This document shows positions 2,752 through 55,263 of a stretch of 64,000 bases of DNA, in pieces. The DNA is from Gemmataceae bacterium (lineage in GTDB: Bacteria; Planctomycetota; Planctomycetia; Gemmatales; Gemmataceae), in the NCBI GenBank assembly GCA_003136315.1, contig PLDW01000323.1:1-64000 (forward strand), read 5' to 3'. The notes under the pieces were generated by a model. The model saw only the letters and a program-made list of their open reading frames with translations, was not told the origin of the DNA and made no database searches. The translations under genes and the position numbers were made by a program. Within the stretch, counting starts at the first letter, position 1, and each line of letters starts with the position of its first letter.

Positions 2752-5700
2752 ATGAACACCGACGACCCAAACCGGACAGCCCACACACCCCGTCCGGAGC
2801 AAGCGGACCCCACATTACCCCCGACTGATCCGAGTACCCGTACCGGTGGCCGGGGCGATCCCTCCCCACTTCCACACGCCCCGGAGCCGACCCAGGCCGG
2901 GGTTGCCCATGATCCGGCCCAGACAATCGACCACGCCCACCGGTCCAGGCCAGTCGAGTCCGACCCGGACCGGGTCACTGTCGATCCGTCGGATGATCCC
3001 GGTTCGGTCACCGTAATCCACGATGACGCCAACTCCCCGACTGCCGATCCCAACACTGGGACGGGGTCACCCGGCGGGGTGGGGCTGACCGGTCCCGTCG
3101 GGGTCAAAGTGGTCACCCTGGACGGGCTCCCGGACATCCCCGGGTATGTGGTCGAGGCGGAGATCGCCCGGGGCGGGATGGGGGTGGTGTTCAAGGCCCG
3201 CCACCTTCGGTTAAATCGTCCCGCAGCAATCAAGATGATCCTCGGTGGGAAGTATCACGACCCTGCGACCCGGATTCGGTTTCTGATCGAAGCGGAGGCG
3301 GTGGCTCAACTCGACCACCCGCACATCGTCGGGGTACACGAGTTCGGCACTCATGAGAACTTGCCGTTCTTCGTCCTGGAGTATGTCGGCGGCGGGACGC
3401 TGGCTGGGAAGCTGGCACGGGAGGGGCGGTTCGCCCCACGGGCGGCAACGGACATGGTTGTGAAACTGGCTGATGGGATCGCTGCGGCTCATGCGAAGGG
3501 GATTGTTCACCGGGACGTGAAACCGGCTAACATCCTGTTGACGGAGGCGGGCGAGCCGAAGGTGGCCGACTTCGGACTTGCCAAGGTGGGTCAGTCGGAC
3601 ATGACGGCGACCGGTGCGGTAATGGGCACGCCCAGCTACATGAGCCCCGAACAGGCGGCCGGTCGAGTTCGGGAGGTCGGGACGCCGACGGATGTGTACG
3701 CCCTCGGAGCGATCCTGTTCGAGTTGTTGACTGGCCGTCCGCCGTTTCTGGGCGACACGGCGATGGCGACGATCCAGCAGGTGTTGACCCGTGACCCGGA
3801 CCGACCACGGGGGATCGATCCGGCGATTCCCCGGGATCTGGAGACGATCTGTCTAAAGTGTCTGGAGAAGGACTCGAAGAAGCGGTACCGGACGGCGGCG
3901 GAACTGGCGGCGGAGCTTCAGGCGTTCCAGGATGGTCGGCCGATCACCGCCCGTCCGGTGGGCAACCTGGAGCGGGCCTGGAAGTGGACGAAGCGGCATC
4001 CGGGGCGGGCGTCCGGTGTCGCGGCTGGGCTGTTGCTGACGGTCGGTCTGTTGGTCGCCTCGAACGAGATCCGGGATCAGCGGGTGAAGGATCAATTGGC
4101 GGCCGAAAAGCGACTGGGTGAAGAGCAGTTGGCGGCCGAGACGAAACGGTTGGATGACCTCCGGGCGGCCGACGAGAAAGCTCGGCAGGTGCAGGAAGTG
4201 ACCCGGCGAGAGACCCGTGCGACGGCGCTGGTCCAGTCGCTGGCGTCGGCAGATACGGCCGGGGTGCCGCGCTTGATCGAGGATCTGGCAGAGTTCCGAA
4301 ACCTGACCGGCCCGCAACTCCGCGAACTTGCCAAGCAGCCGGTGAACACGAAGCCGGGTCTTCACGCTCGGATGGCCCTGTTGTCGGAGGAACCCGAACG
4401 AGCGGGCGAACTGGCCGCGTACCTGCCAGAGTGTCGGCCGGAGGAGTTGCTCCCGGTCCGGTCGCAGCTCAAGCCCCATGCTGCCGAAGTCGCGCCGGGG
4501 TTGTGGGCGCTGCTCACGGACGCGACCGCGGAACCCGGGAAGCGGGTGCGGGCGGCGTGTGTGCTGGCGGGACTGGCCCCGGATGACCCGCGGTGGAAGA
4601 CGTTGGCCCCGGCGGTGGTGGAGCAGGTGACGAAAGAGAACCCGTTGGAGGCGGTGGTGTGGTCGCAGGCCCTGGAACCGGTTCGGGGTGACCTACTGCC
4701 GGCGCTGGTGAGGCGATATCCGGAGTCGCGGGGTCGGATCGAATCCGGGAAGCTGGCGGTGTCGGAACTGGTCGCCGAAGCCTCCGGGTTCGACCTGACG
4801 GCGAACTTGCTCGCCAGATACACGACCGACCGGCCGGCGGAACTGGCCGAATTGGCGATGATTGTAGATGCCCGCCACCATGAGCGGTTCGCGGATGCGA
4901 TCCGGAAGAACCGGGAGGAAGTCGTCCCCGTGTTGCGTGCGGAATTGGGGAAGGTGGCCTTCCCGGGTGGGTTGGTGGGTTCCGGGCTGGCGTCGGTAGT
5001 GGGTGCCGCGGTGTCGGTGTCGGCCCTCGACCCAGACCCGGTGTTCGATGCGGTGGCGAAGCGGAAGGCAAATGCGGCGGCGGTTCTGCTGACGTTGGGG
5101 GAGTCGGAATCGGTATGGCCGCTGTTGCGGTTCCCTGCGGACGGCGACCCATCGGCCCGAAGCTACTTGGTGGAGCGGTTGGCGGGGATCGGTGCCGATC
5201 CACTGGCGCTGATCCGTCGGTTCCGTGATGAGCCGGAGGTGTCGGGGAAGCGGGCGTTGCTGATCGCCCTGGGTGACTTCCCGGTGTCGGCGGTGTGGGC
5301 GGGCGAGCGGGAAGGGCTGGCGAAGGAGTTGGTGACGCTCTACCGAGAACACCCGGACCCGGGCTTGCACGGAGCGATCGACTGGTTACTGCGTCAGCGG
5401 TGGGGAAAGGCTGCGGAGTTGGCGGGGATGGACGCGGAACTGGGGTTGGTGTCGCGGGGTCGTGTGGCGGCCCGAGCGGTGTTCGGCGGTGTGCCAGTGC
5501 CGGGTTTTGGAGGCGTGATGGGTGTGGCGTGTGGCCCATTGCTCCCTGCCCCGGTGGTGGGTCATGACCGGGACTGGTTCGTGAACGGAGAGGGTCAGAC
5601 GTATGCGGTGGTGCGTGGTCCGGTGGAGTTCACACTCGGCTCGCCCGCTACGGAATCAGGGCGGTTCGCTGACGAAACGGCTCACCCGAAGCGGATTGGG

Positions 5701-6378
5701 CGTTCGTTCGCAATTGCAACGAAAAAAGTGACAGTCGAACAGTTCTTGAGGTTTCGGCCTAGACATCGTTGGACGGAGCGATATAGCCCAGACCGTGATA
5801 GCCCGGCGGTAGCAGTGACATGGTACGATGCAGCGGAGTACTGCAACTGGTTGAGCGAGCGGGAGGGGATTCCACCGGACCAGTGGTGCTATGAACCGAA
5901 CAAGGGCGGGAAGTATGCCGAAGGAATGCAGATTAAGGAGGGTCACCTGAAACTGACGGGTTACCGGTTGCCGACAGAGGCAGAGTGGGAATATGCCTGC
6001 CGATCGGGTTCGCTGGCGGGCCGGTATTACGGCCGGTCGGAGGAGTTGCTGCCGCGGTACGGGTGGTACTTGAAGAACGCGGATGATCGGGCGTGGCCGG
6101 TGGGCCGTCTGCGTCCGAACGACCTGGGGCTGTTCGACATGCTGGGGAACGCCAATGAGTGGACCGAAGATCCAGGATTTCTCTATGATATAAGACGTAT
6201 GGAAGATATCGAAAATACGTCACAATTACGATTAAAAGAACAAATGACTCGCCTTCTTCGGGGGGGCTCGTTCGTCTTCACGCCGGTGTTCCTGCGGTGT
6301 GCGAGCCGTAGCGTCAACCGGCCGTCGTTCGTCTTCAATTCGACCGGGTTTCGCCCCTCCAGGACTTCTCCTGATTAG
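2752..6378 (+). CDS. Transmembrane Ser/Thr protein kinase with hypervariable FGE/C-type-lectin-like C-terminus (DGR target)
   Basis: A 1208-residue protein; the ATG at 2752 is chosen because upstream in-frame codons lie in the previous gene. Residues 1-125 are Pro/Asp/Thr-rich and disordered. Residues about 130-400 are an active-looking kinase: glycine loop ARGGMGVVF, VAIK-equivalent AAIKM, HRDVKPAN near 253, DFG near 271, GTPSYMSPEQ. A hydrophobic helix at about 417-437 (AAGLLLTVGLLVAS) is followed by a coiled coil (about 440-490) and a long alpha-helical region. Residues about 955-1208 are an FGE-sulfatase/C-type-lectin fold: FTLGSP, VTWYDAAEYCNWLSE, YRLPTEAEWEYACR, LGLFDMLGNANEW, RGGSF, GFRP. 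Residues about 1167-1203 are encoded by the variable repeat. The layout suggests a cytoplasmic kinase and an extracytoplasmic variable ligand-binding head. Such FGE folds in retroelement targets normally bind ligands and are not formylglycine-generating enzymes. Confidence 0.93.
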   Translation: MNTDDPNRTAHTPRPEQADPTLPPTDPSTRTGGRGDPSPLPHAPEPTQAGVAHDPAQTIDHAHRSRPVESDPDRVTVDPSDDPGSVTVIHDDANSPTADPNTGTGSPGGVGLTGPVGVKVVTLDGLPDIPGYVVEAEIARGGMGVVFKARHLRLNRPAAIKMILGGKYHDPATRIRFLIEAEAVAQLDHPHIVGVHEFGTHENLPFFVLEYVGGGTLAGKLAREGRFAPRAATDMVVKLADGIAAAHAKGIVHRDVKPANILLTEAGEPKVADFGLAKVGQSDMTATGAVMGTPSYMSPEQAAGRVREVGTPTDVYALGAILFELLTGRPPFLGDTAMATIQQVLTRDPDRPRGIDPAIPRDLETICLKCLEKDSKKRYRTAAELAAELQAFQDGRPITARPVGNLERAWKWTKRHPGRASGVAAGLLLTVGLLVASNEIRDQRVKDQLAAEKRLGEEQLAAETKRLDDLRAADEKARQVQEVTRRETRATALVQSLASADTAGVPRLIEDLAEFRNLTGPQLRELAKQPVNTKPGLHARMALLSEEPERAGELAAYLPECRPEELLPVRSQLKPHAAEVAPGLWALLTDATAEPGKRVRAACVLAGLAPDDPRWKTLAPAVVEQVTKENPLEAVVWSQALEPVRGDLLPALVRRYPESRGRIESGKLAVSELVAEASGFDLTANLLARYTTDRPAELAELAMIVDARHHERFADAIRKNREEVVPVLRAELGKVAFPGGLVGSGLASVVGAAVSVSALDPDPVFDAVAKRKANAAAVLLTLGESESVWPLLRFPADGDPSARSYLVERLAGIGADPLALIRRFRDEPEVSGKRALLIALGDFPVSAVWAGEREGLAKELVTLYREHPDPGLHGAIDWLLRQRWGKAAELAGMDAELGLVSRGRVAARAVFGGVPVPGFGGVMGVACGPLLPAPVVGHDRDWFVNGEGQTYAVVRGPVEFTLGSPATESGRFADETAHPKRIGRSFAIATKKVTVEQFLRFRPRHRWTERYSPDRDSPAVAVTWYDAAEYCNWLSEREGIPPDQWCYEPNKGGKYAEGMQIKEGHLKLTGYRLPTEAEWEYACRSGSLAGRYYGRSEELLPRYGWYLKNADDRAWPVGRLRPNDLGLFDMLGNANEWTEDPGFLYDIRRMEDIENTSQLRLKEQMTRLLRGGSFVFTPVFLRCASRSVNRPSFVFNSTGFRPSRTSPD
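6249..6362 (+). repeat. DGR variable repeat (VR)
   Basis: A 114-bp segment at the 3' end of the kinase gene. It aligns without gaps to 7667-7780 at a constant offset of 1418 bases. There are 17 mismatches, every one at an adenine of the template (12 A to T, 4 A to G, 1 A to C); the other 97 positions match. In frame, most changes fall in AAC/AAT codons, turning Asn into Val, Phe, Ser or Thr between RGGSF and GFRP. Just past 6362 the two copies differ by non-adenine changes (6363, 6369, 6372), as expected for the end of the mutagenic homing region. Confidence 0.97.
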
Positions 6379-6422
6379 TTTTTTACTGTTTTAGCATTTT
6401 ACTATCTTACCGTATTCCACTC

Positions 6423-6437
6423 TGCCGCGAAGCGGCA
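6423..6437 (+). other. Mini-hairpin downstream of the VR
   Basis: TGCCGC-GAA-GCGGCA forms a 6-bp stem with a 3-base loop, 61 bases after the VR. The core GCGAAGC is a known unusually stable DNA mini-hairpin. Several retroelements of this class need a hairpin/cruciform shortly after the VR for efficient homing, so this is a candidate for that element. It could also be the transcription end of the kinase gene. Confidence 0.5.
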
Positions 6438-6556
6438 TCGGCACGAAAATCCGAAATTTGATCTGATCGATGATAGAATTTCGTCCCTTCAACGGAGCTG
6501 AACATCGAGGTGTTTCCGTGACGATAAGAGATTGACCGCCACGGAGAGAGGTTGCC

Positions 6557-7645
6557 ATGAAACGGGTTGGGAACCTGTGGGACCGGCTGGTTTCATTCTC
6601 CAATCTCCTGGTAGCGGCCCGGAAGGCCCGCAAGGGGAAGCGGTCCCGGTTTGATGTGCGAGCGTTCGAGTTCGACGCTGAGCGGGAACTCCTCCGCATT
6701 CGGGACGAGCTACAGGCCGGCACCCACACCTTTGGCCTGTACCACACCTTCACCATCACCGAGCCCAAGCCCCGCCTCATCAGCGCGGCACCTTACCGGG
6801 ATCGGGTTATTCACCATGCCCTGTGCAACGTGTTGGAGCCGGTGTTCGAGCGATCGTTCATCGCCGATAGTTACGCTTGCCGCACGGGCAAGGGGACACA
6901 CGCCGCGGTTCGACGCTGCCACGCCTTCGCCTGGCGGTTTCCGTGGGTGCTGAAGGCCGATATCCGAAAGTTCTTCCCGAGTATCGACCACACGATTCTG
7001 AAGGCCCAACTCGCCCGCAAGATCAAGGATCGGCGGGTGCTGGACCTGGCGGCCCGGGTGATCGACCACAGCAACGATCAGGAACCGGTGATCGACTGGT
7101 TCCCGGGTGATGGGTTGCTCGATCCGGCCGACCGCCGCCGGGGGCTGCCGATTGGGAACCAGACGAGTCAGTTCTTCGGGAACGTGTATCTGGATGCCCT
7201 CGACCATTTCGTGACCGACTGCCTCGGAGTCCGCGGGTACATTCGTTACGTCGATGATTTCGTGGTGTTCGGGGAGGGGAAACGAGAGTTGGCGGCGGTC
7301 CGGGAGCGGATCGCGGAGTTCCTTGAATCCCTGCGGTTGCGGCCACACCCAGGAAAGACGACTGTATTCCCGACCCGCCAGGGAATCCGATTCCTGGGCT
7401 ATCGGGTGTTCGGGTCGCACGTCCGGATGGCCCGGGAGGGTGTGATCCGCTTCCGCCGACGGGTGCGGGACTGGCAGGCCGATGCGTCGGCCGGACGGCT
7501 CGACCGGGAGCAGATGCGGCGAAGTGTGGCGAGCTGGCTGGGGCACGTGTGCCACGCTGCCGCCACGAAGTTGCGGGAGCGGATGTTGGGGGAATGGGCC
7601 GCAGCGTTGGAATCGGTGACCCCACCCCTTGCGGCGAACCGATGA
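6557..7645 (+). CDS. Diversity-generating retroelement reverse transcriptase
   Basis: A 362-residue reverse transcriptase with a good ribosome site (GAGAGG six bases before the ATG). Visible RT motifs: KPRLISAAPYRDRVIHHALCN, LKADIRKFFPSID with palm D135, the diagnostic IGNQTSQFFGN at about 199, and the catalytic YVDD at 231-234, then FLGYRVF. The IGNxTSQ version of motif 4 separates DGR enzymes from group II intron and retron RTs. No maturase or endonuclease domain follows, as usual for the class. In characterised systems this enzyme, with Avd, copies the TR RNA and misincorporates at adenines; the cDNA then replaces the VR. It lies between VR and TR on the same strand as the target gene, and its stop codon is 21 bases before the TR. 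Confidence 0.97.
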   Translation: MKRVGNLWDRLVSFSNLLVAARKARKGKRSRFDVRAFEFDAERELLRIRDELQAGTHTFGLYHTFTITEPKPRLISAAPYRDRVIHHALCNVLEPVFERSFIADSYACRTGKGTHAAVRRCHAFAWRFPWVLKADIRKFFPSIDHTILKAQLARKIKDRRVLDLAARVIDHSNDQEPVIDWFPGDGLLDPADRRRGLPIGNQTSQFFGNVYLDALDHFVTDCLGVRGYIRYVDDFVVFGEGKRELAAVRERIAEFLESLRLRPHPGKTTVFPTRQGIRFLGYRVFGSHVRMAREGVIRFRRRVRDWQADASAGRLDREQMRRSVASWLGHVCHAAATKLRERMLGEWAAALESVTPPLAANR

Positions 7646-7666
7646 AGGGTGTGGGTAGCGGCCGTA

Positions 7667-7780
7667 TCGCCTTCTTCGGGGGGGCTCGTTCAACAACACG
7701 CCGGTGAACCTGCGGTGTGCGAACCGTAACAACAACCGGCCGTCGAACGACAACAATACGAACGGGTTTCGCCCCTCCAG
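7667..7780 (+). repeat. DGR template repeat (TR)
   Basis: A non-coding 114-bp repeat 21 bases after the RT stop. It contains runs of AAC and AAT codons in the register of the VR and holds 26 adenines, 25 of them in the mutable part (7691-7762). Seventeen of those are changed in the VR and eight are not. The invariant parts encode RGGSF, LRC, NRPS and GFRP when read in the target frame. It is the RNA template for mutagenic cDNA synthesis. Confidence 0.97.
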
Positions 7781-7981
7781 CACTTCGCCCCACGGACGGG
7801 AGAGCCAGAATCCGGGTGCCCTTCTGTGCCACCCGGAGCGTGCCGGGGTGTGAAGTCCAGGCCACGGTCCAGTGCCAGTTCGCTCACGGGCGGTCTGGCC
7901 GAATCGAACCGATCGCCCGGCGGGTCTGGTAGGCCGCAAGGCTCGAAGGCCCCGCCGGGCTTCCTCATTTCCGGGGTGGTC
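7781..7981 (+). ncRNA. Probable TR-RNA spacer with a long inverted repeat
   Basis: The 201 bases between TR and avd have no convincing gene. They contain a perfect 10-bp inverted repeat (GCCCGGCGGG at 7915-7924 and CCCGCCGGGC at 7951-7960). In the studied phage BPP-1 system about 140 bases 3' of the TR are required in the RNA for RT-Avd binding and priming, so this stretch is the natural candidate for that structured spacer. The function is inferred from position. Confidence 0.5.
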
Positions 7982-8314
7982 ATGTCGAACCCCGAACTGC
8001 CGGTGATTCTGCGGACCTACGATCTGTTGAAGTGGACCGGAGAGCGTGTGGCCCGTTTCCCACGAATTCACCAGCACACCCTCGGCCGGCTTCTCTTCAC
8101 CCACCTTCACGACCTGTTCGACCTGTTGCTGGAAGCGAAGTACACCCGACAGCGAGAACCGTTGCTGACCCGGGCAAACCTGATCCTGGAGCAACTCCGC
8201 TTCCGTGTCCGGCTGGCGTTCGACCTGCGGTGCCTGCGGGCGACCGGATACGGATTCGCAGCGGGCGAACTGGACGCCATTGGCCGGATGGTCGGCGGGT
8301 GGCGGAAGGGGTAG
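7982..8314 (+). CDS. avd: Avd-like accessory variability determinant
   Basis: A 110-residue, all-helical basic protein that matches the Avd family by pattern: PVILRTYDLLKW near the start, FPRIHQHTLG, HDLFDLLLEAKYTR, PLLTRANLILEQLRF, LRCLRATGY, LDAIGRMVGGW at the end. Avd forms a pentameric four-helix-bundle barrel that binds the reverse transcriptase and template RNA in characterised elements. The ATG at 7982 is preferred because the conserved region starts right there and GGGGTGG lies just upstream; longer in-frame starts run back into the TR spacer. The gene order here (target, VR, RT, TR, avd) is a recognised variant of the usual arrangement. Confidence 0.9.
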   Translation: MSNPELPVILRTYDLLKWTGERVARFPRIHQHTLGRLLFTHLHDLFDLLLEAKYTRQREPLLTRANLILEQLRFRVRLAFDLRCLRATGYGFAAGELDAIGRMVGGWRKG

Positions 8315-8502
8315 GACAGTTGCCAGGGGTTGCCCCCGCCCCAATACGTCTGCCCTCCATTCGGTGCGTCTGCCCCGGAGCCCACCCATTGCCCACAACC
8401 CCGGGCGATGCCCTGGTTCTGGACAAGGGAGCAGGCCGAGCCATCGAATAGCTGGCCGACCAGGCTCGATCGGCATCCTCCTCACTTCCCAGTGGCCTAT
8501 CA
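8315..8502. other. Intergenic gap between avd and ASCH gene
   Basis: The DGR operon (plus) and the ASCH gene (minus) converge here. The gap contains the imperfect direct repeat CGTCTGCCC (about 8346 and 8367). I see no second variable repeat, gene or clear terminator. Confidence 0.4.
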
Positions 8503-47937: not shown

Positions 47938-50900
47938 TCACCCCGCTTCTTTCCCTGCGACCTCGCCGAATGCCTGGCGATAGCCCTGGAGGTGCTCCGC
48001 CAGGAGCGATTTGAGCTTTCCAGCATTGAAGTGATCCGCGGACACGAAACGGAGTTTGAGCACATCCGACCTGTCGTTCCGGTCCGACTCCACTGCTGCA
48101 TCCCGGCCGAACCCCTCCACCCGGCTGAGGTTGAACTGGCCGGGTTTCCCCACGAACCAACATTCCAGAGCCGCCGACTCCTTTGTCTTGAGCCGACACC
48201 AGAACCGCGAAGACCCTGGCGGGCGGATGGTCACAGCGTCCCGGACATCCCACTTGAACTCCAACGTCGGGTCGATTTCGCGAATGAGCTTGACCACTTT
48301 CGGAAGGAGTCCACGATCCCACTTTGCCGGTTTGCCTGGTGGGAAGCCCTTCTCGGAGAGATGCCACTTCTCGCCGTCTTTCTTCCAGGGCATCTGGCCT
48401 TCCACACCGCCTGCCAGTTCGCGGAGCCGTCCCAGAAAGGCGTCGGCCGCCTTCGACAGGAACGACCGGAAGGCCGCGGTGTCGATCTCCTCCTTCTTGT
48501 GGACCACCACCACAACGTGTTGCAACCCCGGGGCATTGACCACCTCGACCCGGTTCCCATCCCGGGCGTATCCCTCCAGTCCCGGGGTATCCGACAGTGG
48601 CCGCAGGCCAAGGGACGCCGCAAGAGAGTCGCCCTTGAACGTCCGGCCCGGTACCCGGAACACCAGTTTCAGGTACGCTTCGTGCCCGGTCATGGCGTGC
48701 AGGAACCAGCCATCGGCTTTTTTCGGTGCGGCGATCTCCACGATACTCCGATGGTTCCAGTTCGTATCCGAGAACGTCCCGAGCTGATGGACCTCCTCGA
48801 TCACCCATGAGAGCGCCGATCCGTCCCACTTCGCCGGCTTCCCGGTGGTCGTGACCCGATCGGCAGTGTGCCACTTCGGCCCATCCACCTCCCACGGGAG
48901 TTTGGCGTCCTTGCCAACGTCGGTGATGTCGAGGTCGCCGGCCTGTGCCCGAAGGTGCGCCTCCGGGTCGAACGGCACTCGCTCCGCATGTGGACCGGCT
49001 TCGAGGACGGGTTTCAGGACGCGGCCAGTGTGCGAGGTGAGCCCCGCTGATCGCCGGGTAGGATCGACCGCCTGGCGGACGATGTCTTCGGGTGTGCCAC
49101 ATGCCACCACCTGGCCGCCCCGAATTCCGGCCTCCGGCCCCATGTCGATGACCCAGTCGGCGGTCTTGATGACGTCCAGATTGTGCTCGACCGTGATGAC
49201 CGTGTTCCCGAGGTCGACGAGTCGGTGAAGCACATCCAGAAGTTTGCGGATATCATCGAAGTGCAGCCCGGTCGTCGGCTCATCGAGTAGATACAGTGTC
49301 TTCCCCGTGCTCGGCCGTGCGAGTTCCGCAGCGAGTTTCACCCGCTGAGCCTCGCCGCCAGACATGGTCGGAGCGGGTTGGCCCAGGGCCATGTAGCCGA
49401 GCCCCACATCATCGAGGGTGCGAAGGACGGTGCGGATTTTCGGGATATTCCCGAACAGATCCAGGGCCTCCCCGACCCGCATGGTGAGGACATCGGCGAT
49501 ACTGCGGCCGTGGTATTTCACGGCGAGCGTCTCGGGGTTGTAGCGGCTCCCGCCGCAAGTATCGCACTCGACCCACACATCGGGCAGAAAGTGCATTTCG
49601 ATCTTCTTCTGCCCCATCCCCTCGCAGGCTTCGCACCTCCCGCCTTTCTGGTTGAAGCTAAACCGTCGCGGGTGGTAGCCACGCACCTTGGATTCCGGCA
49701 GCCTGGCGAATAGCTCGCGGATGAGGTCAAACACTCCTGTGTAAGTGGCCGGGTTGGAGGAGGGCGAGTTCCCAATCGGATCCTGATCGACATTGATAAT
49801 CTTGTCGATCTGATCGAGCCCACGGATTTCGTCGTGCGCCGCACCGATCGTTCTGGCACGATGGAGCTTCCTGGCCAGTGTGTTGTACAGCACTTCGTTG
49901 ACAAGAGAGGATTTCCCTGATCCGCTCACACCGGTGACTGCGACAAATGCTCCGAGTGGCAGATGAACATCGACATTCTTGAGATTATTCTGCCGGGCAC
50001 CCAGGATGGAAAGTACATGCCCAGATGGAGCGAGTGCGGCCACCTCCTGGGCGGTCAATGTCTCGTCAGGGAGGGCAGGGGAGACCCTGGCGGCGCTGGC
50101 CCTCTCTCCCTTTTTCTTTGAAGGTGTGGGAGTGAGTTCCTCCCTTCGGAGCCTCCGGTTCGTTGGGACTGGGATCGCGAGTTTCCCGGCGAGGTATTTC
50201 CCCGTCAGTGACTCCTTGGCCTTGAGTATCTGCTTGGGAGTGCCACTTGCGGAGATTTCGCCGCCCTGGTCGCCAGCTCCCGGGCCGAAGTCGAGGAGGT
50301 AGTCGGCCGACCCGATCACCTCCCGGTCGTGCTCGACCAGGATGAGGGTGTTGCCCAGATCCCGGAGGCGGTGGAGGGCTGCCAGCAGCCGCTCGTTGTC
50401 GCGCGGATGGAGGCCGATTGTGGGTTCATCCAGAACGTACAGCACCCCTGTCAGACCCGAGCCGATCTGCGAGGCGAGGCGGATTCGTTGCGCTTCGCCT
50501 CCGGACAAGGTCGGACCGGGGCGAGAGAGCGAAAGGTAGTCGAGACCGACATCGACCAGGAATTTGAGTCGGTTGCCGATCTCGCGGAGAACCTCGCCCG
50601 CCACCTGGCGATCATGGTCGGTGAGGTCGAGGCCGTTGAAAAGGGCGAGAGTGTCGCCCAGGGGTTTGTCGACCATGTCGCCGAGGGTGATCCCCCCGAA
50701 CCGAGTGGCCGCGGCGTCGGACCTGAGCCGCGAGCCGTGGCAGGCAGAGCAGGGCACCTCGTCTACCAGATGGTCGAGTCGCTGACGGTAGACGAAGCTC
50801 ACGCGGGACGCCTCGTCCACCGCGGGAAAGAGGCCCTTGTACTGAAACTTCGGCGATTGAGAATTGGGGGTTGCCGAAGCAGATGAAGTGGGTCGTTTCG

Positions 50901-53900
50901 GTTTCTTCTTTGCCTCGGTAGTTCGCTGCGATCCGGCATTCCCTCCCGGTTCCGATTGCAAGAGCAGCCACGCATCCCCCGTTCCGTGGAGGATCGCCCG
51001 CTGGTGGGCGGGGTCGAGCTGGTCGTAAGGGCTATCGAGGTCAAATCCGGCGTGTCGGGAAATGGCCTCTGCAAACGGCAGCCAGGGCGATCCCGGCTCA
51101 AGCCCTGGCCAGCCAGCAACCGCTCCCGCGCGGAGTGTCAGGGCCGGGTCGCGGATGAGCAGATTCGCATTCGCCCCGCGCTGGACACCGAGCCCCTCGC
51201 AGGTCGGACACCACCCCAGCGGGCTATTGAACGAGTAGTGGTGCGGGTTGAGCGGCTCGAAGCTCAGATTGCAGCGGTCGCACGCCAGGTGTTGGGAGTA
51301 CTTCTCGACCTTCCACTTCGTCTCGTCACGGTCCGGATCGACATACCCGATGTGCATCACTCCGCGCCCCAGGTCGAGCGCCTGCTCAACCGCCTCGGCC
51401 ACCCGGGTGCGTGTGCCGGGGCGAACCACGTTCCGATCAACCACGACTTCCACCGCGTGTCGGCGGCGGTGATCGATCACAGGAGCTTCGTCGACCGAGT
51501 ACGATTTCCCATCCACCCGCATTCGCACATATCCCGCCCGGCGGATTTCCTCCCACAGCGTTTCGTACTTCTCCTGCCCTTTGCGTTCGAGCGGGGCCAT
51601 GATGTAGAGCTTGGTCCCTTCTGGAAGGCCGACCACCTTATCGACGATCTCATCGGCCGTCTGGGTGCCGACTGACTGGCCGCAGGTGGGGCAGTGCCGC
51701 TGACCAAGCCGGGCGTAGAGGATGCGAAGGTAGTCGTACACCTCCGTCACAGTGCCGACGGTCGATCGCGGGCTCTTGCTCGTTGTTTTCTGCTCGATAC
51801 TGATCGCGGGCGACAGTCCGCTGATATGCTCGACCCTGGGTTTCTGCACCTGGCCGAGAAACTGCCGGGCGTAGCTGGAGAGCGATTCCACATAGCGCCG
51901 CTGACCCTCAGCGTAAATCGTATCGAGCGCAAGCGATGATTTCCCCGACCCGCTCGGGCCACAGAACACTGACATCTTCTCCCGGGGCAAGCGGGCGTTG
52001 ATGTGTTTCAGGTTGTGCTGACTGGCTCCCTGAATCTCCAGATGTGTGATATATCCGTTTTTCGTGTTTGGTGTTTGGAGTTTGGAGTTTCGCGTTTTGT
52101 CTTCATTCTTCGCTCCGCGCTCCACGTTCCGCGTTCCGCGCTCTACCCGAAGGATCGGTCGAAGCGCCTCTCCAGTGTAGGACGTTGAGCATTTGGCCAC
52201 AGCTTCCGGAGTCCCCGCAACGACGACCCTGCCGCCCCCGGAGCCGCCTTCCGGACCCATGTCGATCACCCAGTCGGCCGTCTTGATGACATCCAGGTTG
52301 TGCTCGATCACGAGCACGGTATTGCCCTGGGCAACGAATCCGTGAAGGACATCGAGCAGTTTCCGGACGTCCTCGAAGTGGAGCCCGGTGGTGGGCTCAT
52401 CCAGGATGTAGAGAGTCTTTCCGGTTCCCCGGCGCACGAGTTCCTTGGCGAGTTTGATCCTCTGGGCTTCACCACCCGAGAGGGTCGGCGAGGCCTGCCC
52501 GATCTTGATGTAGTCGAGGCCGACATCGTGCAGCGTCTGGAGCATGGCGCGGATCTTGGGAACGTGCTCGAAGTGGTCGAGCGCTTCGGCCACCTCCATT
52601 TCCAGCACATCGTGGATCGATTTCCCGCGGTACTTGACCTGGAGGGTTTCCCGGTTGAACCGCCGGCCCTCGCAGACCGGGCAAGTGACCCACACATCGG
52701 CCAGGAAGTCCATCTCCAGCCGGTTCGCCCCGTTCCCCTCGCAGGCTTCGCACCGTCCGCCCGGCTTGTTGAAACTGAACCGGCCGGGCTGGTAGCCGCG
52801 GACCTTGGCATCCGACATTTCGGCGTACAGTGACCGGATCTCGTCCCAGAGCTTAATATACGTACCCGGATTCGATCGAGGTGTGCGGCCAATCGGGGCC
52901 TGGTCGATGTCGATCACCTTATCGACGCGCTCGACTCCCTCGATCCGATCCGCCATCGAGCGAAACGAGGTCTGGATGGTGCGGGTGTCTGCGTCTTCGG
53001 CCTCCTCCTCTGACTCCTCGGGTCCGGCCTCGGCTTGCCGCATCCCGGATCGCAACACGTCGTTAACGAGCGACGATTTCCCCGATCCGCTCACCCCGGT
53101 CACCACCACGAACACACCCAGTGGAATGTCAACCGTCACATCCTTGAGGTTGTTCTGCCGTGCCCCGATAATGCGAAGTCGGTGACCGGCGACGACTGGC
53201 CGACGGCTGGCTGGAACCGCAATCTCTTTCGTTCCGGTCAGATACTGGCCGGTCAAACTGTTCGGGTCAGCGAGAACGGCCGCGGGCTTCCCGGCCGCCA
53301 CCACCTTGCCGCCGCGGATACCCGGACCCGGGCCAAAGTCGACGAGGTAATCGGCGGCCCGCATGGTGTCTTCATCGTGCTCGACGACGAGGACGGTGTT
53401 TCCCATGTCGCGGAGGCGTTCGAGGCTGGCCAGGAGGCGGGCGTTGTCGCGCGGGTGGAGACCGATACTTGGCTCATCCAGTACATACAGAACGCCGACA
53501 AGCCCTGACCCGATCTGGCCAGCGAGGCGGATGCGCTGGGCTTCGCCGCCGGAGAGCGACGGGGCAGGGCGGTCGAGTGTGAGATAGTGGAGCCCGACAT
53601 TGAGGAGAAAGCCGAGCCGAGCCCGGATCTCCTTGAGCAGTTCCCCGGCGATTGTCTTCGCATTGGCGGCCAGGGCCGCCTCATACCCATCGAGCCAGGG
53701 GACGAGGCCCCCGATCGGTGTCCGCCCGACCTCCACGAGGGTTTTTCCCCCGACCCGGACAGCACGGGCCTGGGAGTTCAACCGTTGCCCCTGACAGGCC
53801 GGGCACCGGACCACACGCATGTACTTTTCGAGCTGCATTCGCCGCGGTCCGGAGGCCGCTTTTCGGAACTGCGCCAGGAGTTGGGGAACGATCCCCTCCC

Positions 53901-55089
53901 ACGTCCCACCATGTTTCCAGACGGCCCCATTTCGCTGTTTCCACTCCCACACGACATGGGCATCGCCGCCACCATTGAGGAGAATGTTGCGGTGCTCTTC
54001 GGGCAGATCCTTCCAGGCGGTCTTGAGGTCGATTCCGAACGTCTTGGCCACCCCTTCGTAAATGTGCTTCCGCCAACGGCCCATCCCCTTGAGTGGGCCG
54101 ACGATTGGGACCGCCCCGGCGTACAGGCTCAGATCGGGATCGGGGACGAGGAGATCCGGGTCGAACGTGAACTGATTCCCAAGCCCATCGCACGAGGGGC
54201 ACATCCCGTGCGGGCTATTGAAGCTAAAGAGTTGCGGCGTCGGCGGCTCGTAACTGACCCCGCAATGGGTGCAAGCGTAATGCGCGGAAAGAAGAATATC
54301 GGCCGGGCCTTCGCTCTCCAAAGCATCTGCCGCGTCTGGGTCGGCGGGTCGGTCTCCTGACTCGATCGCAATGATCAGATTCCCCTCGGCCAGTGCGAGT
54401 GCCTGCTCGACCGCCTCGGCCACTCGCACCCGGAACCCACCCTCGCCGGTTCCGCGCTGGACCAGCCGATCGATCGCGATCTCGATCGTGTGCTTGATCC
54501 GCTTGTCGAGCTTGAGGTCGTCCCCGAGTTTGACGGCCTGACCATCGACCCGAGCGCGGACGTATCCTCGACGGACCATGTCGGCGAAGAAGTCCTTGAA
54601 CTCGCCCTTTTGGCCACGGACGACCGGAGCGAGAATGGTGAACCGTGTGCCGGCCGGCAGCGCCAAAATCCGGGCGACGATTTGCTCGCGGGTTTGGGCG
54701 GTGATGGGCCGCTCGCACCTGGGGCAATGCCCCTGGCCGAGCCGGGCGTACAGAACCCGCAGGTAGTCCGACACTTCGGTAATTGTGCCGACCGTCGACC
54801 GCGGGTTCCGGCCTGCCGTCTTCTGCTGGATGCTGACAGCCGGGGACAGCCCGCCGATGTAATCGACGTCCGGTTTGGGGAGCTGGCCGAGGAACTGGCG
54901 AGCGTAACTGGAGAGGGATTCGACGTATCGGCGCTGCCCCTCGGCGTAGATCGTGTCGAAGGCGAGCGAACTCTTACCGGAGCCACTCACCCCGGTGAAG
55001 ACGATCAAGCTATTCCGGGGGAGCTCAAGGTTGACGTTTTGGAGGTTATGCTCGCGCGCTCCGCGCACGACAATGGTCTGTGTGTCCAT
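47938..55089 (-). CDS. uvrA: Double UvrA: two excinuclease UvrA proteins fused in one chain, with a C-terminal extension
   Basis: A 2383-residue protein; normal UvrA has about 940-1000. The ATG at 55089 starts [19 protein letters not shown]. Residues 1 to ~980 are a full UvrA with Walker A at K39 (GVSGSGKSS), zinc-binding CTHC/CPSC and CEAC/CPVC clusters, two SGGEAQRI signatures, a second Walker A near 668 and LDEPTTGLH. Residues ~1013 to ~2025 repeat the whole plan, with Walker A near 1046 (GPSGSGKSS) and 1723, so four ATPase sites are present. The joint is low-complexity. The last ~350 residues are extra, with two related units ([13 protein letters not shown] ... [14 protein letters not shown] and [13 protein letters not shown] ... 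[14 protein letters not shown]). UvrA works as a dimer in nucleotide excision repair, so the chain may form an internal dimer. Confidence 0.95.
50061..50151 (-). repeat. In-frame low-complexity insertion in the second UvrA half
   Basis: Codes for [20 protein letters not shown] and [10 protein letters not shown], ahead of the fourth ATPase domain. The DNA (ACTCACTCCCACACCTTC, AAAGGGAGAGAGGG, CTGCCCTCCCTGACGAG) looks like the dispersed intergenic repeats of Gemmata-type genomes and unlike conserved UvrA sequence. Judged by appearance only. Confidence 0.45.
52057..52144 (-). repeat. In-frame dispersed-type repeat forming the UvrA-UvrA joint
   Basis: The joint between the two UvrA halves reads [20 protein letters not shown] and KLQTPNTKN. 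The DNA (GGAACGCGGAACGTGGAGCG, GAAACTCCAAACTCCAAACACC) is a set of internal near-repeats of a kind usually seen between genes. It keeps frame and therefore fuses the halves. Confidence 0.55.
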
Positions 55090-55136
55090 AACGCCCGAGA
55101 CTCCTCCTGAGCGGGGCAGGGGGGAAGGGTACAGAG

Positions 55137-55157
55137 GAACAGTATAGCTGACTGTTC
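55137..55157 (-). promoter_or_regulatory. Palindromic operator over the uvrA promoter
   Basis: GAACAGT-N7-ACTGTTC is a perfect 7-bp inverted repeat. On the minus strand it contains TATACT (55146-55141), a -10 hexamer with a predicted start near 55134, 45 bases before the uvrA ATG. A palindrome over the -10 of uvrA is what an SOS-type LexA operator would look like, though the sequence matches neither the E. coli (CTGT-N8-ACAG) nor the Gram-positive consensus. Confidence 0.65.
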
Positions 55158-55263
55158 TCTCGGAGGAAACATGAGCCGTGCGTGTAGCAAGTTTTCCGGG
55201 AACATGAAGGGTTATCAACCTGAATGGCTGAGATCTCACAGCCTCGGGCAACGCCTGGGTTCA

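Follow-up and report, generated by a model that had tools for sequence, protein, structure and literature searches.

An adenine-specific diversity-generating retroelement in a Gemmataceae bacterium, with its spacer RNA and the related cassettes of the same genome

Does contig PLDW01000323.1 of a Gemmataceae bacterium (GCA_003136315.1) carry a complete diversity-generating retroelement (DGR), and has that element been at work? The question is raised by a template repeat (TR) and a variable repeat (VR) found in a 64,000-nucleotide stretch of this contig, here called the window, for which an initial annotation had described a complete DGR with adenine-only variation. Realignment of the 114-bp cores of the VR (6249-6362) and the TR (7667-7780; all features of the cassette lie on the + strand) was gap-free and reproduced exactly the coordinates, length and spectrum of changes reported: 17 differences, 12 to T, 4 to G and 1 to C. 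All 17 fall on TR adenines, so that the claim of no differing non-A base within the core also stood. The core holds 26 adenines in 114 positions, which gives a hypergeometric P of 4e-14 for this placement; the earlier count of 8 unchanged adenines out of 25 is correct if the final adenine, which belongs to the constant CCAG, is not counted. The TR/VR match extends nine bases beyond the core with C>G and G>T differences, and this is an IMH*/IMH-type boundary. At the IMH-like 3' end of the VR (GGGTTTCGCCCCTCCAG/GACTTCTCC, 6346-6371), G is found where the TR has C, and a C/T-to-G boundary difference is common to most of the cassettes compared. Over all cassettes, A-to-C changes are rare (T, 106; G, 93; C, 28; in a second count G, 276; T, 243; C, 64), and the 12/17 share of T in the window VR is equalled in other cassettes, e.g. 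C288 and G063. In vitro, the BPP-1 reverse transcriptase (RT) is reported to prefer adenine misincorporation, giving T in the VR (PMC12875486).

Such a pair could in principle have arisen by gene duplication and selection, the TR and VR being diverged ends of paralogous FGE genes rather than products of reverse transcription. FGE domains do have a common RGGSF...GFRP motif, hence paralogs can be aligned in the VR region, but this origin is already refuted by base specificity, as 0 of the 17 changes is at a non-A base. Furthermore, the TR is not part of the target gene, a covarying RNA comes after it, and the same A-specific pattern was seen in the other cassettes of the genome and in most relatives examined. 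We therefore regard an origin from paralogous ends as extremely improbable.

The protein components of the cassette were then compared with curated families. The RT (6557-7645, 362 aa) matched RVT_1 (3.2e-21) and the DGR RT family phrog_1423 (1.5e-124) and is 38.9% identical to BPP-1 brt (3e-46); the IGNQTSQ and YVDD motifs that had been noted are both present in an intact 362-codon ORF. The gene at 7982-8314, annotated initially as Avd-like, encodes a true Avd accessory protein, which scored above the curated cut-offs of both NCBI (NF033474, 84.3 bits versus 80) and Pfam (bAvd, 42.8 versus 40; 8.1e-11) and also matched the phrog Avd family (5.2e-16). The order of parts in the window is VR-RT-TR-spacer-Avd, whereas VR-Avd-RT-TR is the order in most of the relatives for which a full set of parts was identified. 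IMG/VR was scanned for close relatives with VR variants between strains, and the best RTs were just 32–36% identical; five other genomes of the same genus gave no RT above the cut-off used. Adjoining the DGR, positions 8503-34193 look like an integrated element with a terminase-small-like protein, a type I restriction system, a polA-like protein and a tyrosine recombinase. Elsewhere in the window, a reading frame of 2437 residues (47938-55251) appears, on inspection of its translation by eye, to join two UvrA units in one protein.

Between the TR and Avd lies a structured spacer RNA of 186 nt (7777-7962), for which a covariance model, R1, was built. When 15 sequences drawn from several phyla were aligned, 88.8% of pair cells were paired, a figure favoured by the derivation of the structure partly from the same alignment, and double changes were found at 26 of 32 pairs. 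None of 500 shuffles reached the observed pairing, and sliding the partners abolished it. The fold of the single sequence is unremarkable (z −1.33), and it is covariation that carries the signal. A search of positions 6200-8500 against Rfam returned no family for the spacer RNA; a sub-threshold plant-virus element in the same search was on the wrong strand and was judged a chance match. The window RNA scores 115 bits with R1, of which it is a training sequence. Across the whole genome, R1 picked up nothing beyond the four cassettes already known and, in part, C288; a search of 392 genomes of the phylum gave matches in 25; at the R1 loci checked, a DGR RT was present within 1.5 kb in 19 of 28. 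One match (L129; G247:C1 236000-250000) combines a TR/VR pair with a 103-bit spacer RNA match and lacks a DGR-like RT in its neighbourhood; the top RT match of that genome (99% complete) is just 29% identical. At the edge of the TR, ACUUC (7782-7786) pairs with GAAGU (7852-7856) some 70 nt downstream. Priming of cDNA synthesis in BPP-1 occurs from the spacer (PMC12875486), and the ACUUC/GAAGU helix fits this, suggesting by analogy that priming here may occur in the same way. Run against the BPP-1 cassette, R1 gave no match, its highest score being 2.9 bits (TR side), so the role proposed for the spacer RNA rests on analogy.

Downstream of the VR, a T-rich tract (6379-6419) is followed by a putative homing hairpin, TGCCGC[GAA]GCGGCA (6423-6437), which has a 6-bp stem and a 3-nt GAA loop and begins ~61 nt past the VR core. 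Among cassettes the stems of this hairpin differ while the GAA/GNA loop is kept. For 37 A-specific VRs of other genomes, a T-rich stretch was found after 30 (15% background) and a GNA-triloop hairpin after 17 (1.2% background). Efficient homing in BPP-1 needs a hairpin after the VR (Guo 2011, PMC3240598), and phage DGR hairpins have stems of 7–10 bp and 4-nt GRNA loops at a distance of 4–34 bp (PMC3240598). The window hairpin departs from this rule in both its triloop and its distance; by analogy, it is a putative counterpart of the BPP-1 hairpin and may likewise act in homing.

The VR lies in a gene (2752-6378) whose product matched Pfam Pkinase (2.9e-48) and FGE-sulfatase (5.9e-39). From N to C terminus, the protein comprises a Ser/Thr kinase domain (about 3145-3894; Pfam Pkinase), a predicted transmembrane segment (residues ~418–440, with a borderline hydropathy of 1.67), a long middle region and an FGE domain (about 5626-6354). 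The closest solved structure to the C-terminal domain is that of the Treponema denticola variable protein TvpA (2Y3C, 9e-16), which, unlike the window protein, does not have an N-terminal kinase domain. The VR would thus form the 3' end of a target with a C-type-lectin fold, as predicted from the FGE-sulfatase and PDB matches. We infer for this protein a lectin-fold binding face and a membrane topology. With about 13 randomised codons in a lectin-fold domain that the predicted membrane segment would link to a kinase, the gene most likely encodes a hypervariable receptor kinase, which probably acts as a sensor in defence or cell conflict.

In addition to the window cassette, the assembly (11.6 Mb, 524 contigs, 92.5% complete) contains a near-twin, C362, and three further template repeats, which brings the total to five TRs, with no fewer than four RTs. 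C362 is a single 5.8-kb block with 87% DNA identity to the window, and its VR differs from its own TR at adenines only, apart from the boundary base. At the non-A sites that separate the two TRs, each VR carries the bases of its own TR. The duplication corresponds to a dS of about 0.25–0.4, and dN/dS between the two copies is 0.10 for RT, 0.03 for Avd and 0.21 for the target. Purifying selection on the twins, strong for RT and Avd, together with the tracking of each TR by its VR, implies that homing in cis continued after the copies diverged; as far as can be read from sequence, this shows that homing worked in both cassettes after their separation. The earlier statement that the system has been active was upheld on these grounds.

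The remaining cassettes serve other targets. C2 holds an RT, Avd, a TR and three caspase–FGE VRs, one of them ~16 kb from the TR, and C288 (L029, L094) holds an RT, one TR and three NACHT–FGE VRs. The C288 group is a separate DGR class, in which the T tract and hairpin are absent and the VRs share a G-rich 3' flank. C190 (L030, 3967-6832) has Avd, a TR with its spacer RNA, and a kinase–FGE gene whose VR is A-only; no RT was found on this contig, and the cassette is possibly served in trans by another one of the genome. Broken Avd gene fragments on C483 (L031, 1031-1236) probably mark a dead cassette. A kinase–FGE paralog (L011, 4900-7761 of C2:58000-70000) has its end joined directly to the sequence that lies beyond Avd in the window, as if the RT-TR-Avd block had been lost or had never been inserted.

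In all, 32 VR-like FGE ends were matched by the five TRs. Of these, nine differ at adenines alone or almost alone (0–3 non-A differences, mostly the boundary base) and lie in kinase-, caspase- and NACHT-FGE proteins, and 23 are drifted, with 4–18 non-A differences. In the kinase and caspase groups, each of the six A-only VRs is followed by the T-rich tract and, 54–62 nt beyond where the aligned match ends, by a GC hairpin whose loop is GAA. At that position no hairpin was present in any of the 22 drifted sites (of 23) with enough flank; the Fisher P for A-only (non-NACHT) versus drifted sites is 3e-6, an optimistic value because the sites are related by gene duplication and so are not independent. 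One drifted site, C191, has kept its T tract and has a decayed hairpin, TCGC[ATA]GCGA; at another, C121, a GAA-loop stem occurs at +123 but is unrelated. The 12 drifted relatives tested still have an excess of changes at TR adenines, so the drifted sites seem to have been targets once or to be duplicates of targets. For most remote VR-like sites, a role as live targets in trans was rejected, given 4–18 non-A differences and the missing hairpin. A related explanation is that the drifted sites are also served in trans, by a true TR that is absent from the incomplete assembly. The draft state of the genome and C121, a seeming mosaic of bases of the TR1 and TR2 types, would allow for this, but the genome-wide search with the RNA model returned known cassettes only, and the drifted sites lack the hairpin, mostly lack the T tract and reach 18 non-A differences. 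A missing TR consequently seems improbable. As a tentative and rather doubtful proposal, the genome may hold a two-tier receptor repertoire, in which a few hairpin-licensed VRs would be mutable and duplicated copies would lose the hairpin and T tract and become locked. Some 23 FGE genes, with kinase, caspase or other partners, would then archive binding specificities that had been selected. The licensing signal would include a T-rich tract and a GNA-triloop hairpin, the latter a distinct variant of the BPP-1 signal.

Taken together, the A-specific TR/VR pair, intact RT, Avd, lectin-type target and IMH-type boundary bear out the initial annotation of a complete DGR with A-only variation. We put the probability that the locus is a complete, canonical DGR with the following mechanism at about 0.92. 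The TR and spacer transcript would fold, with the spacer pairing with the 3' edge of the TR, and RT and Avd would copy the TR into cDNA with errors at adenines, as in BPP-1. The cDNA would replace the VR at the 3' end of the kinase–FGE gene, at a site presumably marked by the IMH-like end, T-rich tract and GAA-loop hairpin, and about 13 codons, mostly AAC, would be randomised in the lectin-fold domain. Present-day activity is compatible with the intact state of RT, Avd, RNA and hairpin. The DGR might instead have been active formerly and be silent now, with a frozen VR and a cassette that persists only through chance or its recent origin. Each site is represented by a single VR sequence, and the 23 drifted relatives show that freezing is common in this genome; against this, RT and Avd have evolved under dN/dS values of 0.10 and 0.03 since the duplication, the VR has no non-A differences from its TR, and the RNA and hairpin are intact. 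Silence is a possibility that we think unlikely, and a canonical DGR that may still be active is the reading retained here.

With these results, DGR-diversified immune-like sensors are extended to a genome whose gene content points to a planctomycete, the effectors being of the kinase, caspase and NACHT types. The occurrence of A-only, hairpin-bearing VRs and drifted, hairpin-less VRs in one genome is a natural experiment that makes target licensing directly testable, and R1, a model absent from Rfam, locates DGRs without protein sequence.

Compared with known systems, the window cassette resembles the BPP-1 DGR (mtd/avd/TR/brt) in its homologous RT and Avd, its A-specific TR-to-VR change, its spacer RNA after the TR and its putative homing hairpin after the VR (Guo 2011, PMC3240598; PMC12875486). 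It differs in the order of parts, which in BPP-1 is VR-avd-TR-brt, and in its target, a cellular kinase–FGE protein rather than a phage tail fibre. A second likeness is to the DGRs of multicellular bacteria such as Thiohalocapsa PB-PSB1 (Dore et al. 2024, PMC10907252), with several loci per genome, multiple and duplicated, and FGE/CLec sensors that carry a protein kinase, NACHT or caspase-like domain; genomes with more than two DGRs are rare among them (PMC10907252). The FGE fusions to kinase, caspase and NACHT seen here agree with the conflict-system sensors proposed in that work (PMC10907252). The organism and RT sequences are different, and the present genome has in addition the 23 drifted VR relatives, hairpin-less where testable (22). 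The system is thus of a known kind, and the genome that carries it is unusually informative.
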